DNA from: Chlorobiaceae bacterium
GTDB lineage: Bacteria; Bacteroidota; Chlorobiia; Chlorobiales; Chlorobiaceae
Length of the DNA stretch: 49,466 nucleotides
Assembly (NCBI GenBank): GCA_013334485.1
Contig: JAAXXL010000014.1
Location: 1 to 49,466 of the forward strand
Reading direction: 5' to 3'
Shown: positions 3,780 to 45,223 of the stretch, piece by piece
Layout: every line of letters starts with the position of its first letter
Numbering within the stretch: position 1 is the first letter of the stretch
Notes under the pieces: generated by a model
What the model saw: the letters and a program-made list of their open reading frames with translations, nothing else
Database searches by the model: none
What the model was told of the DNA's origin: nothing
Made by a program: the position numbers and the translations under genes

Positions 3780-4973
3780 ATGAAATATCTTAGGCGATTG
3801 ATAACATCAGAGGTTGAAGAGGGGCTCAAATACTCCCCTGTTACCGCAGTCACCGGGCCACGGCAGTGCGGCAAATCGACACTGACGAGGCACCTTCTCA
3901 CCTATGATCGTCCTTTGCTCTATCTCGATCTTGAAAAGCCTTCCGACCTGAGAAAACTCGAAGAGCCGGAATGGTTTTTTATCTCCCAGAAAGGGAAGCT
4001 GATCTGCATTGATGAAGTGCAGCGAAAACCCGATCTCTTTCCACTTATCCGCAGCATGGTGGATGAGTGGGGTGAGAACGGCCATTTTCTGATTCTCGGC
4101 TCAGCCTCCCGTGATCTCCTCCGACAGAGTTCGGAATCACTTGCCGGACGCATTACCTACAAGCAGTTGACCCCGTTTTTGTGGGAGGAGGTCAAGGATC
4201 ATCTCTCCTACGAGCACTATCTCACGGCTGGCGGGTTCCCGCGCAGTCTGCTGCAAAAGATACCGGAGGTCTCATATCAGTGGCGTGAAGATTTTATTGC
4301 AACCTTCCTTGAACGCGATCTGCTTCAATGGCGCGGTTTTTCGCCGCAAACCATGAGGCGATTATGGCTGATGCTGGCCCATAACAACGGGCAAACGGTG
4401 AACCTCTCGACTATCGGTGGATCACTCGGAATCAGCCATACAACCGTGAGGAATTACCTTGACCTGTTGCAGGATACTTTTATGGTGCATATTCTGCCGC
4501 CGTTCATATCCAATACCGGAAAACGTGTCGTCAAAACACCCAAAGTCTATATTTCTGATACCGGAATCATCACTGCCCTGCTTGGCTTGAGAGATTTCAA
4601 TCAGGTTGTTGGCCATCCGGTTGTCGGATCATTATGGGAGAGCCTGGTGATCAGCAACCTCAAGGGGATGTTTCCGCGTGCAGATCTCTCATTTTACAGA
4701 ACCTCCAACGGAACAGAAATCGACATCCTGCTCCAGCATTCAGGAAAAACAATTGCCATTGAGTGCAAGTCTTCCGTGGCGCCTGTGCTTTCAAGAGGAA
4801 GCTATTCTGCAATAGAGGATATTGCGCCAATGCACACGTTTGTTGTCGCTCCCCTGTCACAAAGCTACCAGATAAAACCCGGAATAACCGTCGTGACTCT
4901 ATCAGATCTGTTCAAGGGAATCGAGAAGTGTATTAATCAGCCTGACAATTCCGCCTTGAGCACACCGAAGTAA
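3780..4973 (+). CDS. AAA ATPase of the AAA_14/DUF4143 family
   Basis: A 397-residue protein with Walker A GPRQCGKST near residue 26, Walker B LICIDEVQ and sensor-1 LILGSAS. A C-terminal DUF4143 part contains the conserved VKTPKVYISDTG segment and a nuclease-like ID(I/L)LL...IAIECKSS stretch typical of the PD-(D/E)XK-like ends of this family. These ATPases are common in bacteria and archaea and spread horizontally; their cellular role is not established. The ATG at 3780 follows a perfect palindrome closely, and there is no Shine-Dalgarno site. An in-frame TTG at 3744 lies inside the palindrome and is less likely. A second, divergent family member is at 46199. Confidence 0.9.
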   Translation: MKYLRRLITSEVEEGLKYSPVTAVTGPRQCGKSTLTRHLLTYDRPLLYLDLEKPSDLRKLEEPEWFFISQKGKLICIDEVQRKPDLFPLIRSMVDEWGENGHFLILGSASRDLLRQSSESLAGRITYKQLTPFLWEEVKDHLSYEHYLTAGGFPRSLLQKIPEVSYQWREDFIATFLERDLLQWRGFSPQTMRRLWLMLAHNNGQTVNLSTIGGSLGISHTTVRNYLDLLQDTFMVHILPPFISNTGKRVVKTPKVYISDTGIITALLGLRDFNQVVGHPVVGSLWESLVISNLKGMFPRADLSFYRTSNGTEIDILLQHSGKTIAIECKSSVAPVLSRGSYSAIEDIAPMHTFVVAPLSQSYQIKPGITVVTLSDLFKGIEKCINQPDNSALSTPK

Positions 4974-5146
4974 ACTGTGCCACTCCGTCAGGCTGGATTT
5001 ATAACGTCATAGACGGGACCCTCAATCCAAAACGTGATAAATTTATACCATTAAACGTATAATAAAAAATGGGGCACAGGCTATTGTTTTCACAATTGAC
5101 CTGCACCCCAAATCATTTAGTAACAAATAGATAGACTCTTAACGGG

Positions 5147-5368
5147 TCATTTTGAGAACCATGAGTCGTCGGCCGATTTTTCCCATTTGTCAACCATTTT
5201 TTCAGCCTCTTCTTCAGCAATACCATAACGCTCCTGGATTTTGCCGCGAAATTGTTCTCGTTTACCTGCAACAACATCCAAATCATCATCAGTGAGCTTA
5301 CCCCACTGCACCTGTACTCTTCCCTTGAGTTGTTTCCAGTTACCTTCAATCTGATCCCAGTTAATCAT
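5147..5368 (-). CDS. CsbD family stress-response protein
   Basis: A 73-residue acidic, Gln/Lys-rich protein with the typical CsbD opening (MINWDQIEGNWKQLKG) and the LTDDDL motif. CsbD-like proteins accumulate under general stress in many bacteria; their biochemical role is unknown. AGGAG lies 7 bases before the ATG at 5368. The gene is near a Lmo0937-type membrane peptide on the same strand, a frequent combination among stress genes. The AT-rich 5377-5567 region separates them, so they may be separate transcripts. Confidence 0.92.
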   Translation of the reverse strand: MINWDQIEGNWKQLKGRVQVQWGKLTDDDLDVVAGKREQFRGKIQERYGIAEEEAEKMVDKWEKSADDSWFSK

Positions 5369-5567
5369 TTGTGTCTCCTGTTTTGGTTCATAAAACTCAT
5401 CTTTTCTTCTTCATTCTTCATCATCATATCACCGACTTACATATCATTTTCCAGCATAGCTAAAGTTGACCTCTTTGAACAAGAGAATAGAAAGGCAAGT
5501 AATGTCAGCCCTTTGAGCTGCATAAAAACAAGCAGTTCTCTTGGTCCGACATTGGATGGATGTTTTT

Positions 5568-5714
5568 CTATATGCGACGGCCTTGTATGACACGAATCAG
5601 AATGACAACGATAGCTATGACCAGAAGGCCATGAATAAGTCCCCCCATCGTATAGGATGTGACAAGACCAAGAAGCCAGAGAACAAGAAGGATAATTGCA
5701 ATGGTTTCGAGCAT
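5568..5714 (-). CDS. Lmo0937-family small membrane protein (DUF5670-like)
   Basis: A 48-residue peptide, almost all membrane: one span at about residues 3-20, then a Thr-Met-Gly-Gly turn, then a second span and a basic RVIQGRRI end. This is the size and pattern of the Lmo0937 family. I start at the ATG at 5714, which has GGAG 7 bases upstream, rather than at an in-frame upstream start that would add 14 hydrophilic residues. It was probably co-selected with the CsbD gene. Function unknown. Confidence 0.8.
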   Translation of the reverse strand: MLETIAIILLVLWLLGLVTSYTMGGLIHGLLVIAIVVILIRVIQGRRI

Positions 5715-6112
5715 GACGTATCTCCGTTTAAATGAAAAGGGTGTTTTTAGCTGCAATAAACTTGTTACCTCTTACAACTCTTTTATGTATACTTTAATAA
5801 CCAAAGGATAGGAACAAAAGGTTCATTGCTCAAGAGAAGTTTCAGCAAATACATCGCTTTTTCCGGAAACAGCACCGGCGTTCCGCTTTTTCATATGCAT
5901 GATTGCGGAGATTCGGATTTGAAATAAAGGGCAGGATGAATCGTAGAATAATCGCTTATGATGTGTAAAATTTGCAGTACTTTGAATCGCGTTCAGAAAT
6001 CCGCGGCTTTTGGAGGGTACATCTCTAATTATTGTTCGACCAGTTCGGAGCCGTCGGCTCCTGAAACACCATGTTGCGCGAACTTCATGACCAGAAAGAG
6101 GAGTGATTCTCA
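5715..6112. other. Intergenic stretch without a recognisable gene
   Basis: It presumably holds the promoter of the Lmo0937-type gene and that of the CheB gene. A 96-codon open frame on the minus strand (5823-6113) has no family resemblance and mixed codon use, so I treat it as chance. GC content rises toward 6000-6112, matching the following CheB gene. Confidence 0.4.
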
Positions 6113-6700
6113 ATGAAAGCTAAAAAGAGTGCGGCCAGGGACTTCCCTGTCGTGTGTGTTGGAGGTTCGGCAGGAGGTCTCGATGCATACATCCGGCTGC
6201 TGCAGAATCTTCCGGCTGACCTGGGGGTCGCCATCGTCATCGTCAATCACCTCAGAACCGTGGCTACCCTGTTGCACGAGATCCTCCCGAAATACACGAC
6301 GATGCCGGTTGAGTTGATCACCGACGACCTGGTCATTGAGCCCAACCACGTCTTCATCATCCCGGAGAAGCGTGACCTGCATGTTCTTGATGGCGAATTC
6401 CGCCTTGAACCGATCTCCAAGCCAAGGGGATGGCCAGACGTGATTACAGTTTTCCTCCGTTCACTCACGAACAACTGGGACGGGAAGATCATCGCCGTCA
6501 TCGTCTCCGGCTATGACGGCGACGGGGCGGCAGCGCTTTGCGGCATCAAGGAAGTGGGCGGCATCACCATCGCCCAGAAGCTCGACACGGCAACGCAGCC
6601 AGACATGCCCGAGAGCGCAATAGAGACAGGGTGCATTGACTTCATCCTCGCACCCGAGAATATCGCCAGGGAAATCGCCAGAATCGCGCGGTCGATATAG
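6113..6700 (+). CDS. Stand-alone CheB-type methylesterase domain protein
   Basis: A 195-residue protein consisting only of the CheB C-terminal esterase fold. The catalytic triad can be placed at Ser19 (GGSAGG), His46 (VNHLR) and Asp137 (SGYDGDG). CheB removes methyl esters or deamidates glutamines on chemoreceptors, but no receiver domain, CheR, CheA or receptor is in the window. Green sulfur bacteria generally lack flagellar chemotaxis, so the substrate is probably something else. GAGGAG precedes the ATG at 6113. The gene is visibly richer in GC and in C/G third positions than its neighbours, which suggests acquisition. The fold is confident; the role is not. Confidence 0.88.
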   Translation: MKAKKSAARDFPVVCVGGSAGGLDAYIRLLQNLPADLGVAIVIVNHLRTVATLLHEILPKYTTMPVELITDDLVIEPNHVFIIPEKRDLHVLDGEFRLEPISKPRGWPDVITVFLRSLTNNWDGKIIAVIVSGYDGDGAAALCGIKEVGGITIAQKLDTATQPDMPESAIETGCIDFILAPENIAREIARIARSI

Positions 6701-6767
6701 TGTGACGTAACCCATGAATAAAAAGCCCAAGGCTTATAAACGACTCTGCCAGCAGCAGAAGTTTCTT

Positions 6768-7001
6768 TCATGGCTTGTTGATTGCCGGTTTCCATTGACT
6801 GGTAGAGTGGCACGATGAGCAACCAGCCTTGGTCTGGCGGTGCAATGTATCATCCGGCTGATCACGACTATGGCATCGTAAACACTGCGCTGAAGCATTC
6901 AGCCTGCTATGGTCAAAGCCTGCATACTGTTCGCTGGTAGTTGCTGAGGTTTTTGCGGAAGTGAACAGCACCGCTATAGCGATAAACATCATTCTGTTCA
7001 T
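6768..7001 (-). CDS. Small periplasmic dihaem c-type cytochrome
   Basis: A 77-residue exported protein with a signal peptide (MNRMMFIAIAVLF then a Ser/Ala/Thr stretch) and two haem sites, CLRCH and CSSCH. Extra histidines in FDHSR and DDTLH could be the sixth ligands, so it may be a bis-histidine dihaem domain. A tight CxxCH pair with W-x-P near the end is seen in multihaem class III-like domains. The ATG at 7001 places the signal peptide correctly; an in-frame TTG at 7031 would add ten residues. It lies just downstream of the monohaem cytochrome gene and is probably the last gene of that operon. It likely carries electrons in the periplasm. Confidence 0.85.
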   Translation of the reverse strand: MNRMMFIAIAVLFTSAKTSATTSEQYAGFDHSRLNASAQCLRCHSRDQPDDTLHRQTKAGCSSCHSTSQWKPAINKP

Positions 7002-7040
7002 GGAATCAGGAGGTTTATTGATTCTTCGCAACTGATTTTT

Positions 7041-7460
7041 TCACCGGGCTCTTCCTCTTCCCTGACCCATTCCCATTCCTCGTCCCATCCCCATATTCGG
7101 ATTGTATTGATCCCATACCCATTCAGCTACAACTCTCAATTCCGCATCCGGCAGACGAAGGGGTGGCATCAGACCGAACCGTGTAATTGCCTGGGGATCG
7201 ACCGCTTTCGCCTTGCGGGGTGCTTTCAGGTAAGCAACTATTTGATTGACACCCTCTATTTTTGTACGAAACTGCAAATGGTATCGGTTTGAAAGCGGGA
7301 TAATCGGCGGGGCGGCTTTAGGCGGCGGAGCAACGGAGTGACAGAGACTGCAATTCCGGTTAAAAATCTCCTGACCACTCATTGTTGCTGCCGTCATCAT
7401 GGAAGGTGAAAGCCCTGATAACAAGCCGGAAAAAATAGTGGCGAACACAACTCTTTTCAT
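7041..7460 (-). CDS. Class I monohaem cytochrome c, exported
   Basis: A 139-residue product with an N-terminal signal peptide, one haem motif CSLCH (37-41) and a probable Met98 axial ligand in FGLMPP, the pattern of cytochrome c551/c6-like electron carriers. The C-terminus is unusual: a Gly/Met/Arg repeat (NMGMGRGMGMGQGRGRAR). AGGAG is followed by ATG ATC ATG; the second ATG (7460) has proper spacing and is chosen. The gene lies between the outer-membrane barrel gene and the dihaem cytochrome gene in the same direction, which points to a periplasmic electron-transfer chain. The gap from the barrel gene is 119 bases, so a separate promoter is possible. Confidence 0.93.
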   Translation of the reverse strand: MKRVVFATIFSGLLSGLSPSMMTAATMSGQEIFNRNCSLCHSVAPPPKAAPPIIPLSNRYHLQFRTKIEGVNQIVAYLKAPRKAKAVDPQAITRFGLMPPLRLPDAELRVVAEWVWDQYNPNMGMGRGMGMGQGRGRAR

Positions 7461-7579
7461 GATCATTCTCCTGTTAAATTATTACACCATTATCTGAGAG
7501 AGTCAGCTCTCCCCTTCCTGAATTATTTAACTACAATCATTTAACCTATAATTGATTGCAGCTCCGGAATGCGCAGCAA

Positions 7580-8755
7580 TCAAAAAAGGAACTCCACTCC
7601 GGCAGTTGTCGAAGATGCCGTGTAATGGTTATACTCCGAATTTGAGGTATTCCATATCTTCTGGTACTCTCCGTACAAGTTCAGCTTCTTTCCCTTGTCG
7701 GAAAAGGAAACCGATTTTTCAAGGCGGGCCCATATCCTTTTATAGTCGTCACTTCGTTGAGGAGATCCTGTCACAGCATTGCCGCTGATATCCTGAGCCG
7801 TTTCAGTGTAGTTTTTTACCGACTGCTCATATCCTGTTCTTGCCGTCACACCATAGGGAAGCTTTCTGGAGAGCATCCCGCCGAACTCCCTGCTTTCATA
7901 GCTGTACCTGTCATCAAAAAGGGCATCCTCAGAATAATTGTCGGCAGACAAACCACTGACAGTAACATTGCTCTCCCCGAAATTGACACGATACCTGACA
8001 TAGACCCTTACCCCTGTTTTGTCGTCAAGCAACGGTGAGGAGAGGGTCAGAGCATTGACCCATTGTCCGGCATTTGCAGACTCAACGTCAGTTCCTGTTG
8101 TCACGACCCACCGTCCCCGATATCCCTTCCTGACGACGGTTGTTCCGGAAGTGAGGGGCGAGAGATAGTGCTTGTATCCGAGTTCAGATGAAATTCCGAT
8201 ATTTCTTCCTCCCTCCATCGGTATCTGCAACCCGCCATACAACTGGTGCTCAAGATTATCCAGCTCATCAAGTTGATCATAACTTCTGTTGGAGAGTGTG
8301 TAACCGGCTGATACAATCAAATTATCGCTCCGGGGCAATTTCACATCCACAAAACCCGCATATTCACGGTAGTCATAGAGCTGATAATTATCTCCGTCTA
8401 TCCTTGTTCTTCCCCGCAATCCGCTGCGTACCCAACCTTTATTATCCAGATTACGCTGAACAGCAAGGGTAATTTGAGGCAGAAGATAGTTTCGATCGGA
8501 ATGGTCTGTGAAATTGACAGAGTTTCCCTCTAATGATGCCATGGCACTCCATCTCTCCCAATCCCATGCGTGTGCCAGAGAGATATCCGCTTCAGAGACA
8601 ACATCTTTTTCGGGAGTGCTGTTTCGAAAAACATTGCTCTCTGCACTGCCTGAAATTGAAGCTTTAGTTTGCCACTCCGCCGCTGCAACCACTGGCCACA
8701 GAGCAATAATCGCCAGACTGAACAATAGCCTCATAATATTATTTGATGGTCTCAT
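7580..8755 (-). CDS. Outer-membrane beta-barrel protein of unknown family
   Basis: A 391-residue protein with a signal peptide ending near AAAEW, then alternating polar/aromatic strands rich in Tyr, Gly, Ser and Arg, and a C-terminal phenylalanine (GVEFLF) as expected for BAM-dependent barrels. Strand-like segments repeat about every 20-25 residues, allowing roughly 14-18 strands. I cannot name the family. Its place directly before two cytochrome genes invites comparison with porin parts of porin-cytochrome conduits (MtrB/PioB), but I see no sequence signature for that. The start is 6 bases after the stop of the 117-residue secreted protein, so the two are co-transcribed. Confidence 0.8.
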   Translation of the reverse strand: MRPSNNIMRLLFSLAIIALWPVVAAAEWQTKASISGSAESNVFRNSTPEKDVVSEADISLAHAWDWERWSAMASLEGNSVNFTDHSDRNYLLPQITLAVQRNLDNKGWVRSGLRGRTRIDGDNYQLYDYREYAGFVDVKLPRSDNLIVSAGYTLSNRSYDQLDELDNLEHQLYGGLQIPMEGGRNIGISSELGYKHYLSPLTSGTTVVRKGYRGRWVVTTGTDVESANAGQWVNALTLSSPLLDDKTGVRVYVRYRVNFGESNVTVSGLSADNYSEDALFDDRYSYESREFGGMLSRKLPYGVTARTGYEQSVKNYTETAQDISGNAVTGSPQRSDDYKRIWARLEKSVSFSDKGKKLNLYGEYQKIWNTSNSEYNHYTASSTTAGVEFLF

Positions 8756-9831: not shown

Positions 9832-11190
9832 TTATTTCATGCCGTACTTTTTAAGCTTGTAACGCAGGTGGCGTTCACTGATACCAAGAAGTTCGGCGGC
9901 TCTGGTCTGCACCTGACCAGACACACCGAGTGCATCAAGAATCAATGACTTTTCGAAGGCTTCAACCTTTTCAGTGAAAGCCCCATCTCCTGACGTTACC
10001 TGGTCTGAGATCTCACTGCCATCATTGAGCCTGACGGGAAGATCGTTTCGCATGATGGTTTCGCTGCGGGAAAGGACAACTGACTGCTGAATAATGTTTT
10101 CAAGTTCCCGGACGTTTCCGGGATAGGAGTATTTCATAAGAGAGTCCATCGCCTCTCTTGAAATTCCGGCAATCCGTTTGTTGTTTTCCGATGCAAAGCG
10201 GCGAATAAAGCCTTCAACCAATGGAGGAATATCTTCGCGTCGTTCTCTGAGGGGGGGTATTCGTATTGAAACAACATTCAGCCGATAGAAAAGGTCCTGG
10301 CGAAAGGAACCCTCTCTGATCATTGCTTCGAGATCCCTGTTTGTGGCGGCGACAATGCGGGCATTCGCCTGTAGCGAAATGTTGCTGCCGATGCGTTCAA
10401 ATGTTTTCTCCTGCAATACCCTGAGCAACTTGACCTGGAGGGAAAGGGGAATTTCGCCCACCTCATCAATGAAGAGAGTGCCGCCTTCAGCCGTTTCAAA
10501 TCTCCCTTTCCTTTGGCGGTCAGCTCCGGTAAAAGCCCCCTTTTCATGACCGAAAAGCTCACTTTCAAGGAGAGTATCCGGTAGTGCTGCGCAATTAACC
10601 GCAACAAATGGATTGTTGTGGCGGGAGCCGGAAAAATGTACAGTTCTGGCTATCAGTTCCTTGCCTGTGCCGGTTTCACCGGTGATCAGAACGGATGCAT
10701 TACTGTCGGCTATCCTGCCTGCAACATTGAGTACCTGACTCATCGCTGAGGATTCAGCTATGATTCCGTCAACACTGAATCGATCTGTGAGTTGCTCACG
10801 AAGCAACCGATTTTCGCTGATGAGCTGTTTTCGTTCAACAATATTGCGTATCAGTACCTGCAACCGATACAGGTCAATCGGCTTGGTGATGTAGTCGACA
10901 GCTCCCAGTTTCATGGCATCGGTTGCTGATTCAACCGTGCCGTAGGCGGTCATGATGATAACCTGTATAGAGGGATTGATCGCCTTGATTGCTTCAAGAA
11001 GTTTTACCCCGCTCATGCCGGGCATCTTGAAATCGGAGAGCACGATATCGACCGCACTGTTCCTGATACTCTGGAGGGCCTGTTCAGGGTGTGAAGCCTT
11101 CACTACCCGGTAGCCCTGCTTTGAGAGAAAGCCGGCAAGGCTCTCCAGTTGCACAGGCTCGTCTTCAACCACCAGAATCGTATAATCCAT
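9832..11190 (-). CDS. Sigma-54-dependent response regulator (ZraR/AtoC-like)
   Basis: A complete 452-residue NtrC-family activator. The N-terminal receiver has VVEDE and phosphoacceptor Asp in VLSDFKMPG. The AAA+ domain has Walker A GETGTGKE, the GAFTGA loop and Walker B LFIDEVGE. The C-terminal Fis-type helix-turn-helix includes RAAELLGISERHLRYKL. AAGGAAG precedes ATG ATC ATG; the second ATG (11190) has correct spacing, so the 41 residues of upstream open frame are not coding. It follows the sensor kinase gene by 37 bases and is its cognate regulator. The -24/-12 promoter 159 bases beyond its stop makes the secreted-protein/barrel/cytochrome operon the obvious target. Confidence 0.96.
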   Translation of the reverse strand: MDYTILVVEDEPVQLESLAGFLSKQGYRVVKASHPEQALQSIRNSAVDIVLSDFKMPGMSGVKLLEAIKAINPSIQVIIMTAYGTVESATDAMKLGAVDYITKPIDLYRLQVLIRNIVERKQLISENRLLREQLTDRFSVDGIIAESSAMSQVLNVAGRIADSNASVLITGETGTGKELIARTVHFSGSRHNNPFVAVNCAALPDTLLESELFGHEKGAFTGADRQRKGRFETAEGGTLFIDEVGEIPLSLQVKLLRVLQEKTFERIGSNISLQANARIVAATNRDLEAMIREGSFRQDLFYRLNVVSIRIPPLRERREDIPPLVEGFIRRFASENNKRIAGISREAMDSLMKYSYPGNVRELENIIQQSVVLSRSETIMRNDLPVRLNDGSEISDQVTSGDGAFTEKVEAFEKSLILDALGVSGQVQTRAAELLGISERHLRYKLKKYGMK

Positions 11191-11227
11191 GATCATCTTC
11201 CTTTTTTTCTTTGCTAATGAGAACCGT

Positions 11228-13267
11228 TCATAACCGGGGCAGCACGATTCTGAAAATGCTCCCCCTGTTTTCAATGCTTTCGACCTCCATAACTCCTCCA
11301 TGGGACTGGACAATCTGGTTGGCGATGCTCAGCCCCATTCCTGTACCCTCCTCTTTTGAGGTAAAATAGAGATTGAATATTTGAGAGAGCATCTCATCTG
11401 GAATTCCCCTGCCGGTATCGGAAACCTCAATGAAGGCATTGCCGGATCGCTCTCCTGCCGTGACGGCCACCTCCCCGCCCGGCTCTGTAGCTTCTACTGC
11501 ATTGCGTACAAGATTGAGCAATACCTGCTGCATCTGCGCCCTGTCGATAGCAATCCGGCATGGAGATAAAACCTTCAGGGTAAAGTGCACTTCTCCGGCT
11601 TCGGCTTCACCCTCCAGTAGAGGCCGGTATTGCGTGATAAATTCCTCCAGCTCTGTTGGCATCAGCATAAGCTTCGGGGGACGGGCAAATTTCAGAAATC
11701 GCTGGATGATGGCATTGACCCTATGTACTTCACCAACAATAGATCGAGCCAGATGATGATACTCCTCTCTCTCTTCAGTTGGAGAAAACTCCATGTCAAG
11801 CCGCTGCCCCAGAACTCCGATGGCATTGAGCGGATTGCGGATTTCATGAGCCACCCCGGAAGCGAGTTCACCCATTGCGGTGAGTTTTTCCTGTCGCTCG
11901 ATCACTCTTTGCATTGAACGCTCCCCGGTCATATCCCGTAAAACGACAAACGCCCCGTCAGGATAGTTCTCCGTGCCTGTGACCAGGCTGAAATGGCCTG
12001 CGAGAATGAGACAACGTTTGTGAATAAAGCATTCGAACTCCTTTGTGATGGAAGGAGTCTCCCGGTTCATAAACTCAATGATCAGGATTCCGCATTCGGG
12101 CAAAATATCACTGAGAGGGTGGCCGATGGCATCGGTCATCCTTATACCCAAAAGCTTTTCGGCTGAGCTGTTGAGCAGTGTAATGTTCCCCCCCGAGTTC
12201 ACGGCTATGACTGAATCCGCCATATTTTCGAGAATGGAGGAGGAAAAGAGCTTTTCACCAAGCAGGGCATCCTTGACCCTCAATTCATTGCGTCGTGTAA
12301 GGATAAGGTTGAATACCGCAAGCCCGCCAATAAATGCAAGACTGAGAAGCAGCAAAAGCCTGGTTTGAAGCTTCTCTGATGCCTCCATGAATGGATCGGT
12401 TTTCAGTCCGATGCGAAGTAATCCGAACCTGCTGTTGTGATAGTAAAATGGCTTGATCACCTCAAAGACCTTTGTGCCATTAAATGTGGTAAACCTTGTG
12501 GTTGAACTGTTCTGTTCAAGTGCTCGCGACAGGATCGGGTCTGACTGAATGGTTTCGGTTTCAGTTACATTTGAGGTCGCAGCAATGATGGCCGACGTAT
12601 CCTGCCAGATGATATAGGCAATCCCGGCAGCATCGGTACCTGTTCGCTGAATGAGTCTTCCCGGCCCTATCTGCTTCTGCATGGCGAGCAGTCTTGATGC
12701 ATCGACATTTCCGACAATGGCGCCGCCCCGTTTTCTGGCTACAGCAACAACCAGTCGGGGCCCCTTTCCTGATTCGCTCTCCCTGATTCCAAGGTTGAGC
12801 AGATCAGTTTTTCCTGAAAGGATCGGCATGAGCTGAGAGGATGGATCGCAGTTCAAAAGAAGTGGTTTGTGATCAGGCGGAGTGTTCCATGCAATTCGCT
12901 TGCCGTTACGATCAACAATAGTTATCCGGTACATTCCGCTTTTACCTGCAATTTCAGTCAGATTTTCGGATGTCAACGCTTTCTGGCTATCCATGCGCTC
13001 TATCAGACGCAACTGATCGGCCAGCCCGCCGGTAATGAGACTATTGATCTCGTTATAGCCGATAAGTGCAGTTTCAGCACCTTCAGTAAGAAAATGAATA
13101 AGCAGTGTTGACTCCTCATGCATCATCTTCTCTATCTCTTGCATGCGGGCTTTATAGTGCAAAAAGGCTGTAGCGGAGAATGCTATGACCAATAAAAAAA
13201 ACATTCCGGCAAGATAGTTTGGCGGAATTGGCAACGGACGCCACTGTTTTTTATTCCTGCGTATCAT
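11228..13267 (-). CDS. Membrane sensor histidine kinase (PAS-HisKA-HATPase), ZraS/AtoS-like
   Basis: A 679-residue kinase. A first transmembrane helix at about 20-40 and a second near residue 310 enclose a periplasmic sensor domain of roughly 260 residues, probably Cache-like. A PAS domain follows, then HisKA with GVAHEIRNPLNAIG (phosphoacceptor His) and a HATPase domain with DTGRGIPDEM and GTGMGLSIANQIV. I favour the ATG at 13267 because it is followed at once by a basic segment and the first helix; a GTG start further upstream is possible and no Shine-Dalgarno site helps. It is co-transcribed with the regulator gene at 9832 and presumably senses a periplasmic ligand. Confidence 0.94.
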   Translation of the reverse strand: MIRRNKKQWRPLPIPPNYLAGMFFLLVIAFSATAFLHYKARMQEIEKMMHEESTLLIHFLTEGAETALIGYNEINSLITGGLADQLRLIERMDSQKALTSENLTEIAGKSGMYRITIVDRNGKRIAWNTPPDHKPLLLNCDPSSQLMPILSGKTDLLNLGIRESESGKGPRLVVAVARKRGGAIVGNVDASRLLAMQKQIGPGRLIQRTGTDAAGIAYIIWQDTSAIIAATSNVTETETIQSDPILSRALEQNSSTTRFTTFNGTKVFEVIKPFYYHNSRFGLLRIGLKTDPFMEASEKLQTRLLLLLSLAFIGGLAVFNLILTRRNELRVKDALLGEKLFSSSILENMADSVIAVNSGGNITLLNSSAEKLLGIRMTDAIGHPLSDILPECGILIIEFMNRETPSITKEFECFIHKRCLILAGHFSLVTGTENYPDGAFVVLRDMTGERSMQRVIERQEKLTAMGELASGVAHEIRNPLNAIGVLGQRLDMEFSPTEEREEYHHLARSIVGEVHRVNAIIQRFLKFARPPKLMLMPTELEEFITQYRPLLEGEAEAGEVHFTLKVLSPCRIAIDRAQMQQVLLNLVRNAVEATEPGGEVAVTAGERSGNAFIEVSDTGRGIPDEMLSQIFNLYFTSKEEGTGMGLSIANQIVQSHGGVMEVESIENRGSIFRIVLPRL

Positions 13268-13532
13268 GCGTAGCGGTATCTTTGCATTACCTCTTTCACC
13301 CGTCACTGTTATACTTGATGCTCCGGTAAACAGAGCAATCACCACCCCGAGCGCGACAAAACCCGTCAGCAGCTCTTACATCCAAAATAATAGAGTTCCG
13401 ATCAGAGCCCCCGGTTACCGAAAATGCCGACGAGATGATCATTGCTTGCTATAGAACAATATTGTATTATTACTCTGAAAACATGTAATTACTATCGATC
13501 AAACCTCACTCAACCCTGAACAGTAAACCCCA

Positions 13533-41372: not shown

Positions 41373-43814
41373 TCAACTCTTTTTGGCCAACAGTTCCTCA
41401 AGAGCCTTGACAATGCGCTCAACCTTGGGTGCTGGATCATCAGTCCGGCCAAAACGGCAATGCATTTCAAGCTCTTCGGCATCCAGACTAAGCGACGTAA
41501 TACCAAGAATAGCGGAACTTCCTTTCAGTTTATGCGATTGCTGTCTAAGACTCTCAATATCGTTTTCCTCCAACGCCCGCCGCAAACACGCTGGAGTATC
41601 CTGAAACTCTTCAAGAAATATCCGCAAAAGCTCCTCGCTCTCCGAAGCATACTCTGGCACTCTGTTTTCCGGAAACGGATTTACTACCGGCAAAGACAAT
41701 TGCCTGCCAATACAGACAGTAAGAAGATGCGGATTGTCCGTTTTGATACAGAATTCATTCATTCCTGCGTTTTTAGCAGCAGCCTCTTCTTCATTCGCTC
41801 CGCTGAGCCCAATCACAGGAAGTCGGCACAATCGCTGGTTGTGACTCGATCGAATCCTGCGGGTAAGCTCAAGACCATCCATAGTCGGCATGTGAATATC
41901 AGTTATCAGAAGTTCGAAATCCTGACTCATCAGAATCTCCAAAGCATGCCCGCCATTATCTGTAACCGTCACGGCAAGGCCTGCGTCTCTGAGATACATG
42001 GCAAGGAGGTCGCGATTGAGGGCAGAATCATCAACAAGCAGCACTTTTCTTCCGGAAAACAGAGAACCTGGATATTTTCCTTCTGGAATGGTATAGAGTA
42101 CGGAACGCAAGGAACTAATCAGTTCGGCCTGACTGCACGGCTTGGCAATGAAAGCCTGCATTCCAGCGTTTTCAGACCTGCTCCTGGCAGTAAGGATGGA
42201 CTCTGAACTATGTGCAACAACAGGCACTGAACAGGCTTCAGGTCCGGCTTCTCCCCGCCGTAACCGTTCAACAGCCTCATATCCGCCCATCGTTGGCATG
42301 TTCAGATCCATGATAACAAGATCGTACCGCCTGACGGCCAACAGCTTCAAAGCTTCACGTCCATCTACAGCCTCGTTGATCTCTACCTGAAGAGGGGCGA
42401 GATACTTTTTCAGGATAATACGGTAAAGCGCTTCATCATCGACAATCAGCAGTCGCTTTCCCTCAAAATCAGACCGACCCATAGCGATAACACTATCGGT
42501 ATAGATGTTCATCTCTGATTCTGAAATAACCGGGAAGGAAAGGATGAACTCCGTATACTCCCCTTCAACCGATTCGCAATCGATGGCTCCCCCGAAAGCC
42601 GTCATAACTCGTTTGCAATACGCCAAGCCGAGGCCTGTACCGGCGATTTTGCCTTTGGTATAAAAACTGTCGAAAATATGAGGCAGAGTCTCACTGGATA
42701 TACCGGGACCCGAATCACGAAAACTGAGATAGTTATAGCGCTCACCCTTTTCAAGCCGAATCGTGATCTCACTTTTCGGGCAGGTTTTAAAATAGAACAA
42801 CGCGTTCTTCAGCAAGTTGAAGAGCACAAAAACAAAAAGCGTTTCATTGACATGAAAAATGAACGCATCTTTTATGACAAGATGAACCCGTCTCCGATCT
42901 TGCTCTGATTCATAACCACATTCATCAAGAGCGTTTCGTGTAAGGCGGGCAGCAGACAAATAGGTGAAACTCTCAGGCCCGATGGGCTTTTCGCGCACCT
43001 CACTGAGTACCATATCGATTACCTGAGCGCCTCGTTTCACGGCCATCTGACCACGAAGCACCCGTTCATAAAGACTCTCAAGCTTCTCTTTTCCGATAGG
43101 TTTGGCAAACCCCTCCGGGTTCAACTGCGGCAGAAGATTCTGAATGCTGTAAAGGCAATGATGAATCTGGCCGAGAGGGTTACGCATCTCATGAGCGATG
43201 CTGCCAGCAAGAGATTGCAATACCGTATTACGCTCCTGTGCCAGAGCACTTTTTTTATTGGTAGAATTGACCAGTAGCCCAAGCAAAAGAGCAACAGGAA
43301 TTGACAGAAAGTATTCAACAATTTTAGATGTAATCAACAAATGGGTTCCTGTGGTCACAACAAATCCGGCATAGGCAATAAAAACACCTAAAATGAACAG
43401 AATTGCCAGGAGGTAATAATTGGTAACGAAGATGATGAACACAAGCAGCATAACGGTTTCTGCGACCAGCCATAAGCCGGAAAAATCGTTCATCAACAAC
43501 AAAAAAGTAAAAACAACAGGAAAGGTAAACGTCAACCAGAGATACCAATATATCATCAGCAATGGCCTGAACTTATCGGAATAACGCTGATGAAAAAGAA
43601 TTGGAATAAATAAAATCGCCGAAAGAAAACGCAACTCAAAAGACTCGTAATGCTGAGGGAATACAAATGTACAAAGCAAGTAATAAAGCGGGTGTCCCCA
43701 TAAGCCAATGAACCTGATGTAATTGATCGTCAGTTCGCTACGCTCATAATCTTTCCCAAGAAAATCCGCTGACCGTTGCAGGAAAGATTGTCTGATGAAA
43801 TAACCAGGACTCAT
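41373..43814 (-). CDS. Hybrid histidine kinase with CqsS/LqsS-like membrane sensor, two receivers and HPt
   Basis: An 813-residue kinase. Residues about 30-183 form six or so membrane helices with no large external loop. They include PLYYLL, FPQHYESF, LRFLSAILF and LLLMNDFSGLW, which I recall as the pattern of the CqsS/LqsS alpha-hydroxyketone quorum sensors. HisKA follows with phosphoacceptor His208 (IAHEMRNPLG). The HATPase has DSGPGIS, GTGLGLAYC and AFGGAIDC. Two receivers follow (Asp503 and Asp639) and an HPt domain with His761 (HKLKGSS). CqsS has one receiver and no HPt, so this is an extended phosphorelay version. It starts 14 bases after the methyltransferase fusion gene, in one operon with it. 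Confidence 0.9.
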   Translation of the reverse strand: MSPGYFIRQSFLQRSADFLGKDYERSELTINYIRFIGLWGHPLYYLLCTFVFPQHYESFELRFLSAILFIPILFHQRYSDKFRPLLMIYWYLWLTFTFPVVFTFLLLMNDFSGLWLVAETVMLLVFIIFVTNYYLLAILFILGVFIAYAGFVVTTGTHLLITSKIVEYFLSIPVALLLGLLVNSTNKKSALAQERNTVLQSLAGSIAHEMRNPLGQIHHCLYSIQNLLPQLNPEGFAKPIGKEKLESLYERVLRGQMAVKRGAQVIDMVLSEVREKPIGPESFTYLSAARLTRNALDECGYESEQDRRRVHLVIKDAFIFHVNETLFVFVLFNLLKNALFYFKTCPKSEITIRLEKGERYNYLSFRDSGPGISSETLPHIFDSFYTKGKIAGTGLGLAYCKRVMTAFGGAIDCESVEGEYTEFILSFPVISESEMNIYTDSVIAMGRSDFEGKRLLIVDDEALYRIILKKYLAPLQVEINEAVDGREALKLLAVRRYDLVIMDLNMPTMGGYEAVERLRRGEAGPEACSVPVVAHSSESILTARSRSENAGMQAFIAKPCSQAELISSLRSVLYTIPEGKYPGSLFSGRKVLLVDDSALNRDLLAMYLRDAGLAVTVTDNGGHALEILMSQDFELLITDIHMPTMDGLELTRRIRSSHNQRLCRLPVIGLSGANEEEAAAKNAGMNEFCIKTDNPHLLTVCIGRQLSLPVVNPFPENRVPEYASESEELLRIFLEEFQDTPACLRRALEENDIESLRQQSHKLKGSSAILGITSLSLDAEELEMHCRFGRTDDPAPKVERIVKALEELLAKKS

Positions 43815-43828
43815 TGGCTAATACGACA

Positions 43829-45223
43829 TTATTTTTTCAGTACACAGAAACTGTAATGGCTATAAACATCTTCCATGATATCGAGAAGTTCCCTGGAAGT
43901 GATATTCTCTCCTATGACAAGGTCATGTATATCAGTGAGGGCACTGATATCATTATATCCATTAATAAAAGGCTCACCCATTTTACGGATATTATGAATA
44001 AACCCTTCAGCTTCAGGAATACCTGTACGGATATCAACAAGATCTTTAGAGACATAATCAAGCCAGATGCAGGAATCCGGAGTCATAATCTTTCTGATCG
44101 AACAAAGAATAGTGTCGATATGCACGTCGCGGAAATACATTGAACCACCCTCCCAGACAAAAAAGGTCGGTAATCCAGAATCGAAATCCGACAGCTTCAC
44201 TAATGCCTGATCGATCGTTTGAGTTTCAAGATCAATCGGGACATTATGGATCGATTTGTTCTTGCTGTAATCAAAAATCATTTGTCGTTCATGCAGCATA
44301 ACCGGTAAATCAAGATCGTATATGACTGCATTAGCAAGATTCAACCGCCAGAAACGGCTATCATAACCTGCCCCGATATTGACCACATTAAATTTCGTCT
44401 TTCCGGAAGCAAACTGCTGTACACACGCATCAAGATGTTGTGTGCGGGCCGCGATCATATTCTGAAGTTGCGGTGTAGCCACACTGAACCTTCTGGCAAG
44501 GGTAATGCCATGCTTTCCTGCCAGCATAAATGCGTAAGGATCGTCAAACCGCCTCTCTTCAGGGGGCTTTTCCTGTTCCAGAGCGCGCAATCCAACAATC
44601 AGCTTTGCTGTCGTTTTTGTTTTGTGCTCATAGAGTAAATCAATCTTTTCAGCATCAAAGGCATTGCGTTTCAACCCTTTGATATCCTGTGCCCAGTAGG
44701 TAAAATCCGCAACAGCTACAAGTTTATCACCATTGAACATTTTTACCGGAATGGTTACCACCACCTTGCTGCTGTTTGCATAACGTTTTGCAAGACCTTC
44801 CCATCTTCCTTTTTCAATCTCGGCCCTGCAGGTCAGGTCATTACAACTGGGTGTAAGCCACTTGATTGACGCCTTGGCTCCCCACATATAGCCGGCGTTT
44901 TCATCAACCGACGGCCAGAAACCGATAATCGGGACCCGATGAAACAACGTGGTCAGGGCAAGACCCCCGGTATATTCTGCAGCAAGCAACATCAATGGAC
45001 CTTGATGAGCAATATACTGATTCGAAGCATTTGGAATTAGCGGAAGCTCGGTTTCAGCATAGCCACGAGCAACATCCGTAATTTTCCAGTCAATAAAACC
45101 AAGAGCCGGAACCGACTCGTGAAAGGATTGAGTAAGGGATTCAAGGTTGAACCGATCCTTGCGGTCCTCCTCCCATGCATCGATTGAATTCAAAAGAAAA
45201 GAGGGGCTGAAGTTAAGTTCCAT
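43829..45223 (-). CDS. Hotdog-fold (DUF4442-like) / LCM-type SAM methyltransferase fusion
   Basis: A 464-residue protein. Residues about 30-185 look like a hotdog thioesterase-type domain: NQYIAHQGPLMLLAAEY, ASIKWLTPSCNDLTC and VTIPVKMFNGDKLVAVADF follow the DUF4442 layout of acyl-thioester-binding proteins. Residues about 225-464 are a leucine-carboxyl/polyketide O-methyltransferase domain with RTQHLDACV, NVVNIGAGYDSRFWRL, YDLDLP and EGGSMYF. One chain thus could bind both an acyl-CoA/ACP and SAM. It is co-transcribed with the CqsS-like kinase, so it may make that sensor's ligand. The domain calls are by eye; the fusion itself is uninterrupted and clear. Confidence 0.85.
   Translation of the reverse strand: MELNFSPSFLLNSIDAWEEDRKDRFNLESLTQSFHESVPALGFIDWKITDVARGYAETELPLIPNASNQYIAHQGPLMLLAAEYTGGLALTTLFHRVPIIGFWPSVDENAGYMWGAKASIKWLTPSCNDLTCRAEIEKGRWEGLAKRYANSSKVVVTIPVKMFNGDKLVAVADFTYWAQDIKGLKRNAFDAEKIDLLYEHKTKTTAKLIVGLRALEQEKPPEERRFDDPYAFMLAGKHGITLARRFSVATPQLQNMIAARTQHLDACVQQFASGKTKFNVVNIGAGYDSRFWRLNLANAVIYDLDLPVMLHERQMIFDYSKNKSIHNVPIDLETQTIDQALVKLSDFDSGLPTFFVWEGGSMYFRDVHIDTILCSIRKIMTPDSCIWLDYVSKDLVDIRTGIPEAEGFIHNIRKMGEPFINGYNDISALTDIHDLVIGENITSRELLDIMEDVYSHYSFCVLKK

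Follow-up and report, generated by a model that had tools for sequence, protein, structure and literature searches.

Our analysis of a contig from a Chlorobiaceae bacterium (assembly GCA_013334485.1, contig JAAXXL010000014.1; its whole length of 49,466 nucleotides is called the window below) indicates that two adjacent genes on its minus strand form a constant pair. The first encodes a fusion of a hotdog domain with an LCM-type methyltransferase that uses S-adenosylmethionine (SAM), and the second a hybrid histidine kinase whose membrane region resembles that of CqsS, a quorum-sensing receptor of Vibrio. We think it probable, though well short of certain, that the two make up a synthase-receptor unit for cell-cell signalling, with the fusion releasing an acyl chain and turning its carboxylate into a methyl ester that the kinase reads. 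Across the receptor family, the residue at one specificity position, 107 of CqsS, tracks the type of enzyme encoded next door, as would be expected if the neighbouring enzyme makes the ligand. More broadly, we put forward a proposal whose chances we consider even: that the hotdog-LCM fusion founds a new class of quorum-signal synthase, that CqsS-type receptors are modular with swapped synthases (CqsA, AfsA with a flavin oxidase, class I methyltransferase, KAS III, hotdog-LCM), and that residue 107 serves as a head-group code.

A constant pair of genes

The window is the entire contig C79 of a 2.59 Mb assembly (completeness 95.9%, contamination 0.48%). The original prediction, which had proposed a methyltransferase-hotdog fusion paired with a CqsS/LqsS-like sensor kinase, had the layout right, since the open reading frames lie exactly where it placed them, on one strand with 14 nucleotides between the stop of the upstream fusion gene and the start of the kinase gene, and all the kinase motifs it quoted are present.

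43829-45223, minus strand: fusion gene, 464 residues, PaaI/YiiD_C-type hotdog plus LCM-type SAM methyltransferase, proposed signal synthase
44684-45151, minus strand: hotdog domain, about residues 25-180, from the AlphaFold model (mean predicted local distance difference test, pLDDT, 75) and best PDB matches
44033-44614, minus strand: LCM/TIGR00027 methyltransferase domain, about residues 204-397, with SAM motif NIGAGYDSRFWR, from profile matches and Foldseek
43815-43828, minus strand: intergenic gap of 14 nucleotides, fusion stop to kinase start
41373-43814, minus strand: CqsS-type hybrid histidine kinase, 813 residues, proposed receptor
43245-43727, minus strand: membrane receptor region, about residues 30-190, aligning over its full length with V. 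campbellii CqsS
43461-43472, minus strand: codons W115-A118, corresponding by alignment to the head-group specificity positions W104-S107 of CqsS; Trp retained, Ala for Ser
43191-43193, minus strand: phospho-acceptor His208 within AHEMRNP
42111-42452, minus strand: receiver domain 1, Asp503
41715-42047, minus strand: receiver domain 2, Asp639
41388-41636, minus strand: Hpt domain, His761

The pairing of fusion with kinase is well supported. The two genes are neighbours at 13 of 13 loci where both fit on the contig, in 12 Chlorobium-group genomes, which bears out the co-occurrence that the original prediction had proposed to check. In a sample of 394 Bacteroidota genomes, 13 full-length fusions (12 genomes) and 13 sensors of this class stand one to one, adjacent by coordinates and confined to one genus-level group, with a fourteenth fusion broken by a contig end; no full-length relative was found on plasmids or elsewhere in this sample. 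Among named genome records the fusion occurs at 12 loci, all in Chlorobi, with the kinase directly downstream wherever a contig end does not intervene, and no case of the fusion apart from its sensor was found in the loci examined. Twelve compared loci fall into eight gene contexts (counted as the same when two flanking genes are shared), and nothing but the pair is common to all of them. Close relatives of the fusion sit on long contigs of Chlorobium, one measuring 921 kb, and the fusion gene is native to the Chlorobium group. A promoter and terminator scan of the region gave no clear excess above shuffled sequence. One genome (G008, contigs C30 and C60) carries both subtypes of the fusion, E83 and D83; its contamination is 7%, and it may be a mixture.

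The receptor family and its partners

The kinase joins a CqsS-like membrane part (FPQxYE, LMNx, W) to the H-box AHEMRNP, a HATPase domain, two receiver domains and an Hpt domain, and both the conserved W104 and the H-box are present. Its membrane region is homologous to CqsS along its length; the number of helices is read from the alignment, which fits six, and a hydropathy scan gave no clear six segments. In a maximum-likelihood tree that contains Vibrio CqsS, the fusion-paired sensors form one clade (Shimodaira-Hasegawa-like approximate likelihood ratio test, SH-aLRT, 99). Judged by sequence, then, the kinase is in the CqsS/LqsS receptor group, as predicted. LuxN (NF041945), the top NCBIfam match, was rejected as an assignment, with 303 bits against a cut-off of 1550 and a best stretch (residues 157-561) that corresponds to kinase core and receiver. 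We take the membrane region to be specific to the CqsS-type receptor group because a tblastn search with it matched only 11 of 72,556 plasmid records. Six of these are from Vibrio or Cupriavidus, one has a KAS III neighbour, and there are four others; cqsA lies beside the sensor at all three Vibrio or Cupriavidus plasmid loci read (V. campbellii, another Vibrio and Cupriavidus EM10), while on the Dyella and Rhodanobacter plasmids the neighbour of the sensor has no assigned function, with a weak receiver-domain match in Dyella. At two further loci, L172 (G288:C54) and L176 (G155:C74), three divergent CqsS-type sensors stand in a row, and the usual H-box motif was not found in them.

By the membrane-region profile the genome encodes three such sensors, in the window and on contigs C80 and C45. 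No CqsA- or LqsA-type synthase dependent on pyridoxal phosphate (PLP) lies beside the window receptor, where the fusion occupies its place. Next to the C45 sensor lies a true CqsA, 53% identical to the Vibrio enzyme and scoring 618 bits where the cut-off is 428. The C80 sensor gene comes last in an overlapping operon of three, after the genes of an AfsA-family (A-factor type) hotdog enzyme and a flavin amine-oxidase-type enzyme:

L066 (G000:C80), 3798-8199: operon of AfsA, flavin amine-oxidase-type enzyme and CqsS-type sensor; about 26 such loci in Chlorobiaceae, apparently a second pairing not yet described

The claim that a cqsA-type synthase is absent thus holds at the locus but not in the genome, and the claim of a first such system in green sulfur bacteria falls with it, all the more as cqsA/cqsS in Chlorobiaceae had already been published (PMC5289986, PMC10158934). 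The original prediction had regarded a cqsA homologue with its own sensor elsewhere as counting against it, and one is indeed found; since the genome carries three parallel sensor units, it counts against exclusivity and not against the pairing. What remains of the proposed new synthase-sensor pairing is the constant neighbourhood, the fusion in the position of a synthase and a residue 107 that follows the synthase. We regard that interpretation as partly supported: its core stands, but its two claims of no CqsA and of a first in the group do not. Among 61 relatives, CqsA exceeds its cut-off in 12, and exactly the same 12 genomes carry sensors of this kind. A further check covered 18 genomes, and each of the nine AfsA genes in them has a CqsS-type sensor beside it.

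A survey of 104 sensors, with the neighbouring enzyme recorded for each and combined with the tree, extends this picture. The partner is CqsA in 31 cases (Vibrio and Cupriavidus included), AfsA with a flavin oxidase in 26, the fusion in 11, a class I methyltransferase in seven, an O6-alkylguanine repair gene in six and KAS III in one, and the remaining 22 have none or a contig end. In the tree, Vibrio CqsS joins most CqsA-paired Chlorobi sensors. The fusion-paired clade falls into a second large group, together with the KAS III sensor from Paraburkholderia and the sensors paired with AfsA or a methyltransferase. Nested within the AfsA group are four CqsA-paired and three methyltransferase-paired sensors, and a single group of all CqsA-paired sensors (Cupriavidus left out) is rejected by the approximately unbiased (AU) test (p = 1.3e-5). 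In the four genomes that carry the nested CqsA-paired sensors there is CqsA but no AfsA; G104 and G141, relatives with AfsA-paired sensors, have AfsA and no CqsA. CqsS-type receptors would accordingly be a family whose synthases are interchangeable, and the unit in the window one of its branches, apparently undescribed so far.

Two of the rarer pairings deserve separate mention. The class I SAM methyltransferase lies downstream of the CqsS-type sensor at four and upstream at three of seven loci (L077, L078, L149, L165, L159, L166, L155) and is possibly of the PhcB type. On Paraburkholderia caribensis plasmid 2 (L027 5894-9535), a KAS III-type ketosynthase lies 27 nucleotides upstream of a CqsS-type hybrid kinase, a possible further type of synthase.

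For CqsS of V. cholerae, published work assigns recognition of the CAI-1 C3 group to two residues of helix 4, W104 and S107, that of the head group to F162 and that of tail length to C170 (PMC3376566, PMC5007282). Our alignment takes its numbers from V. campbellii CqsS (offset of four) and reproduces the published Vibrio residues at the specificity positions, including the V. harveyi Phe at 170. W104 is invariant in all sensors. Position 107 is Ser in 31 of 31 CqsA-paired sensors, Trp in 26 of 26 AfsA-paired and 7 of 7 class I methyltransferase-paired ones, Ala in the KAS III-paired sensor, and either Ala (5) or Cys (6) in the 11 fusion-paired sensors, the window kinase having Ala118 there and W115 at the position of W104. 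It is the sole column of 213 that separates CqsA-paired from otherwise paired sensors without error. Where AfsA was swapped for CqsA, Trp changed to Ser: eight of 224 columns set the four nested CqsA-paired sensors apart from every AfsA-paired one, and only at 107 do all four have the residue that is fixed in the other CqsA-paired sensors. F162, in turn, is replaced by Met, Val or Ile in all 11 fusion-paired sensors and kept in nearly all other synthase-paired ones. Ser107 also occurs in three sensors without an adjacent synthase, in genomes without CqsA over the cut-off (L131 10496-12652, G250; L138 7376-9592, G077; L155 1590-3752, G081), and it is possible that these eavesdrop on the alpha-hydroxyketones of other species.

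Proposed mechanism and competing readings

The C-terminal half of the fusion is an LCM methyltransferase (PF04072, 87.4 bits against a cut-off of 22.3; TIGR00027, 106 bits against 93.55) that retains its SAM motif. The predicted structure has the LCM fold, with ML2640, Rv0731c, TYW4, LCMT-1 and PPM1 as best PDB matches in Foldseek. The last three, the matches whose role is established, methylate carboxylates, and we propose that this half esterifies too. The hotdog half is confirmed by its model: in sequence it stays below Pfam cut-offs (YiiD_C 22.3 against 27 bits; second score of the PaaI/DUF4442/YiiD_C set 18 against 25 bits), with YiiD_C matched at E<0.01 by 11 of 12 fusion homologues. In a model of the whole fusion the pLDDT of this part is mostly below 50; a domain-only alignment with free-standing hotdogs of related genomes gave a better model, a hotdog with mean pLDDT 75. 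The model matches PaaI-type enzymes with TM-scores of about 0.8 (target length), its best PDB matches being MadB, PA5026, a Shewanella putative thioesterase, YdiI/YbdB and PaaI types, and fold and alignment both place the domain with PaaI/YiiD_C types. It has a predicted hotdog fold with a conserved acid on the central helix. N68 and residue 83 (Glu or Asp in 12 of 12 homologues) lie 15 residues apart and align with the Asn/Gln and Glu/Asp positions of PaaI-type active sites; the spacing equals that of the PA1618 mutants Q49A and E64A, among the structural matches. Going by this model, the hotdog half should act on an acyl thioester, hydrolysis and a MadB-like decarboxylation both being compatible with it. 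A comparison with AfsA (PF03756) by hhalign found no similarity, the profiles being shallow and the same run weak even for true hotdogs.

Like the original prediction, we infer that the fusion makes a lipid-like signal; one reason to see a synthase in it is that sister sensors adjoin other acyl-using enzymes (CqsA, AfsA with flavin oxidase, class I methyltransferase). In the mechanism we favour, the hotdog half would take up an acyl thioester, on acyl carrier protein (ACP) or coenzyme A (CoA), and release or trim the acyl group, and the LCM half would methylate the resulting carboxylate with SAM to give a small lipophilic ester that could leave the cell. The ester would bind the CqsS-type membrane region in a pocket equivalent to the CAI-1 site, where Ala or Cys for Ser107 and Met, Val or Ile for Phe162 would fit a different head group. 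The receptor contains every element of a His208-Asp-Asp-Hpt phosphorelay; for the direction of kinase control and for the output we infer that ligand binding shifts this relay, which would have a separate protein, a response regulator, as its end point. A LuxO-like sigma-54 regulator lies near several CqsA-paired sensors (754 nucleotides downstream in L091, 8708-10165), and a 58% identical one in the window's genome (G000:C80:23293-24684) is, on sequence grounds, a candidate output of the unit.

Several observations weigh against this reading. No dedicated response regulator lies within the two-gene unit. O6-alkylguanine-DNA repair genes precede every sensor of one clade (6 loci: L080-L083, L169, L170; Ser107 retained), so that adjacency alone is no proof of ligand synthesis. 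The link with residue 107 comprises two independent contrasts only and has no p-value, and the fusion-paired sensors are a single clade. Finally, Gln74 stands where the active-site His of hotdogs is usual, and with MadB, a malonyl-ACP decarboxylase, as top structural match, a thioesterase role is not required.

These last two points bear on the product. It is possible, if rather doubtful, that the unit is a synthase-receptor pair whose product is something other than a simple fatty acid methyl ester, such as a decarboxylated (MadB-like) compound or a methylated dicarboxylic or beta-keto acid; the match to MadB and Gln74 speak for such a product, whereas the LCM half keeps its SAM motif and characterised members of its family esterify carboxylates. 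We find it unlikely that the fusion is the regulated output, or that it modifies or degrades a signal, with the kinase responding to something different in the membrane. Hotdogs of the thioesterase type and methyltransferases can indeed inactivate or modify compounds, and adjacency alone does not give the direction, but the fusion holds the position that the synthase families CqsA or AfsA hold beside sister sensors, and residue 107 follows the partner type. That the sensor is a second receptor for the alpha-hydroxyketone of the genome's own CqsA (as LqsT beside LqsS) and the fusion an unrelated co-transcribed lipid enzyme is improbable: this CqsA exists and the sensor has W104 and the CqsS membrane region, yet the residue at 107 sets all 11 fusion-paired sensors apart from the CqsA-paired ones and that at 162 from nearly all other synthase-paired ones, and the fusion is never seen without this sensor.

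Few families of lipid-like quorum signals are known, and their discovery has so far been led by chemistry. Here receptor homology and one specificity residue lead, within a single bacterial family, to three or more pairings of synthase and receptor that appear to be undescribed. If the synthase-receptor reading is right, it predicts new signal molecules, testable gene by gene, and new signals would arise by a synthase swap together with a change of residue 107 in the receptor. A single genome of the Chlorobium type would in that case have several lipid-signal channels running in parallel, whereas a 2023 paper found the CAI-1 system as the only one in green sulfur bacteria (PMC10158934). Pairings other than CqsA/CqsS were not found in the literature searched, subscription papers lying mostly outside its reach. 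Elsewhere in the window (9832-13345, minus strand), a sigma-54 response regulator and a PAS-type histidine kinase overlap; no link to the fusion-kinase unit was found.

Relation to known systems

The unit resembles CqsA/CqsS of Vibrio and LqsA/LqsS of Legionella in its receptor group, membrane motifs, W104, H-box and a synthase gene next to the receptor gene. It differs in having no PLP synthase, in the replacement of Ser107 and Phe162, and in that the kinase is a hybrid with two receivers and Hpt, in a clade apart from most CqsA-paired sensors. AfsA-type gamma-butyrolactone synthase units are related through the same genome, where a sister sensor comes after genes for AfsA and a flavin oxidase, but AfsA belongs to a different hotdog family (PF03756) from that of the fusion. 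The methyltransferases of the LCM/PPM/TIGR00027 group (ML2640, Rv0731c, LCMT-1, TYW4) share domain family and fold with the fusion, whereas no hotdog is described in the best solved matches and the full-length fusion is found in the Chlorobium group only.

Nearest in chemistry is the Ralstonia system, where the methyltransferase PhcB makes a 3-hydroxy fatty acid methyl ester that PhcS senses (PMC6989110, PMC10653808); with a carboxyl methyl ester established as a quorum signal there, an ester as signal is plausible here. A four-gene operon on the Paraburkholderia graminis plasmid pPHS1_P (L097 4356-8731), with a 468-residue methyltransferase, a histidine kinase and two response regulators, has a layout like phcBSRQ. 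Compared by description only, PhcB/PhcS and the unit in the window both have the gene of a SAM methyltransferase adjoining that of a sensor kinase, and the product proposed here is of the same chemical type. Publications on PhcB present it as a SAM methyltransferase and describe no hotdog, and the methyltransferase half of the fusion is of the LCM family.

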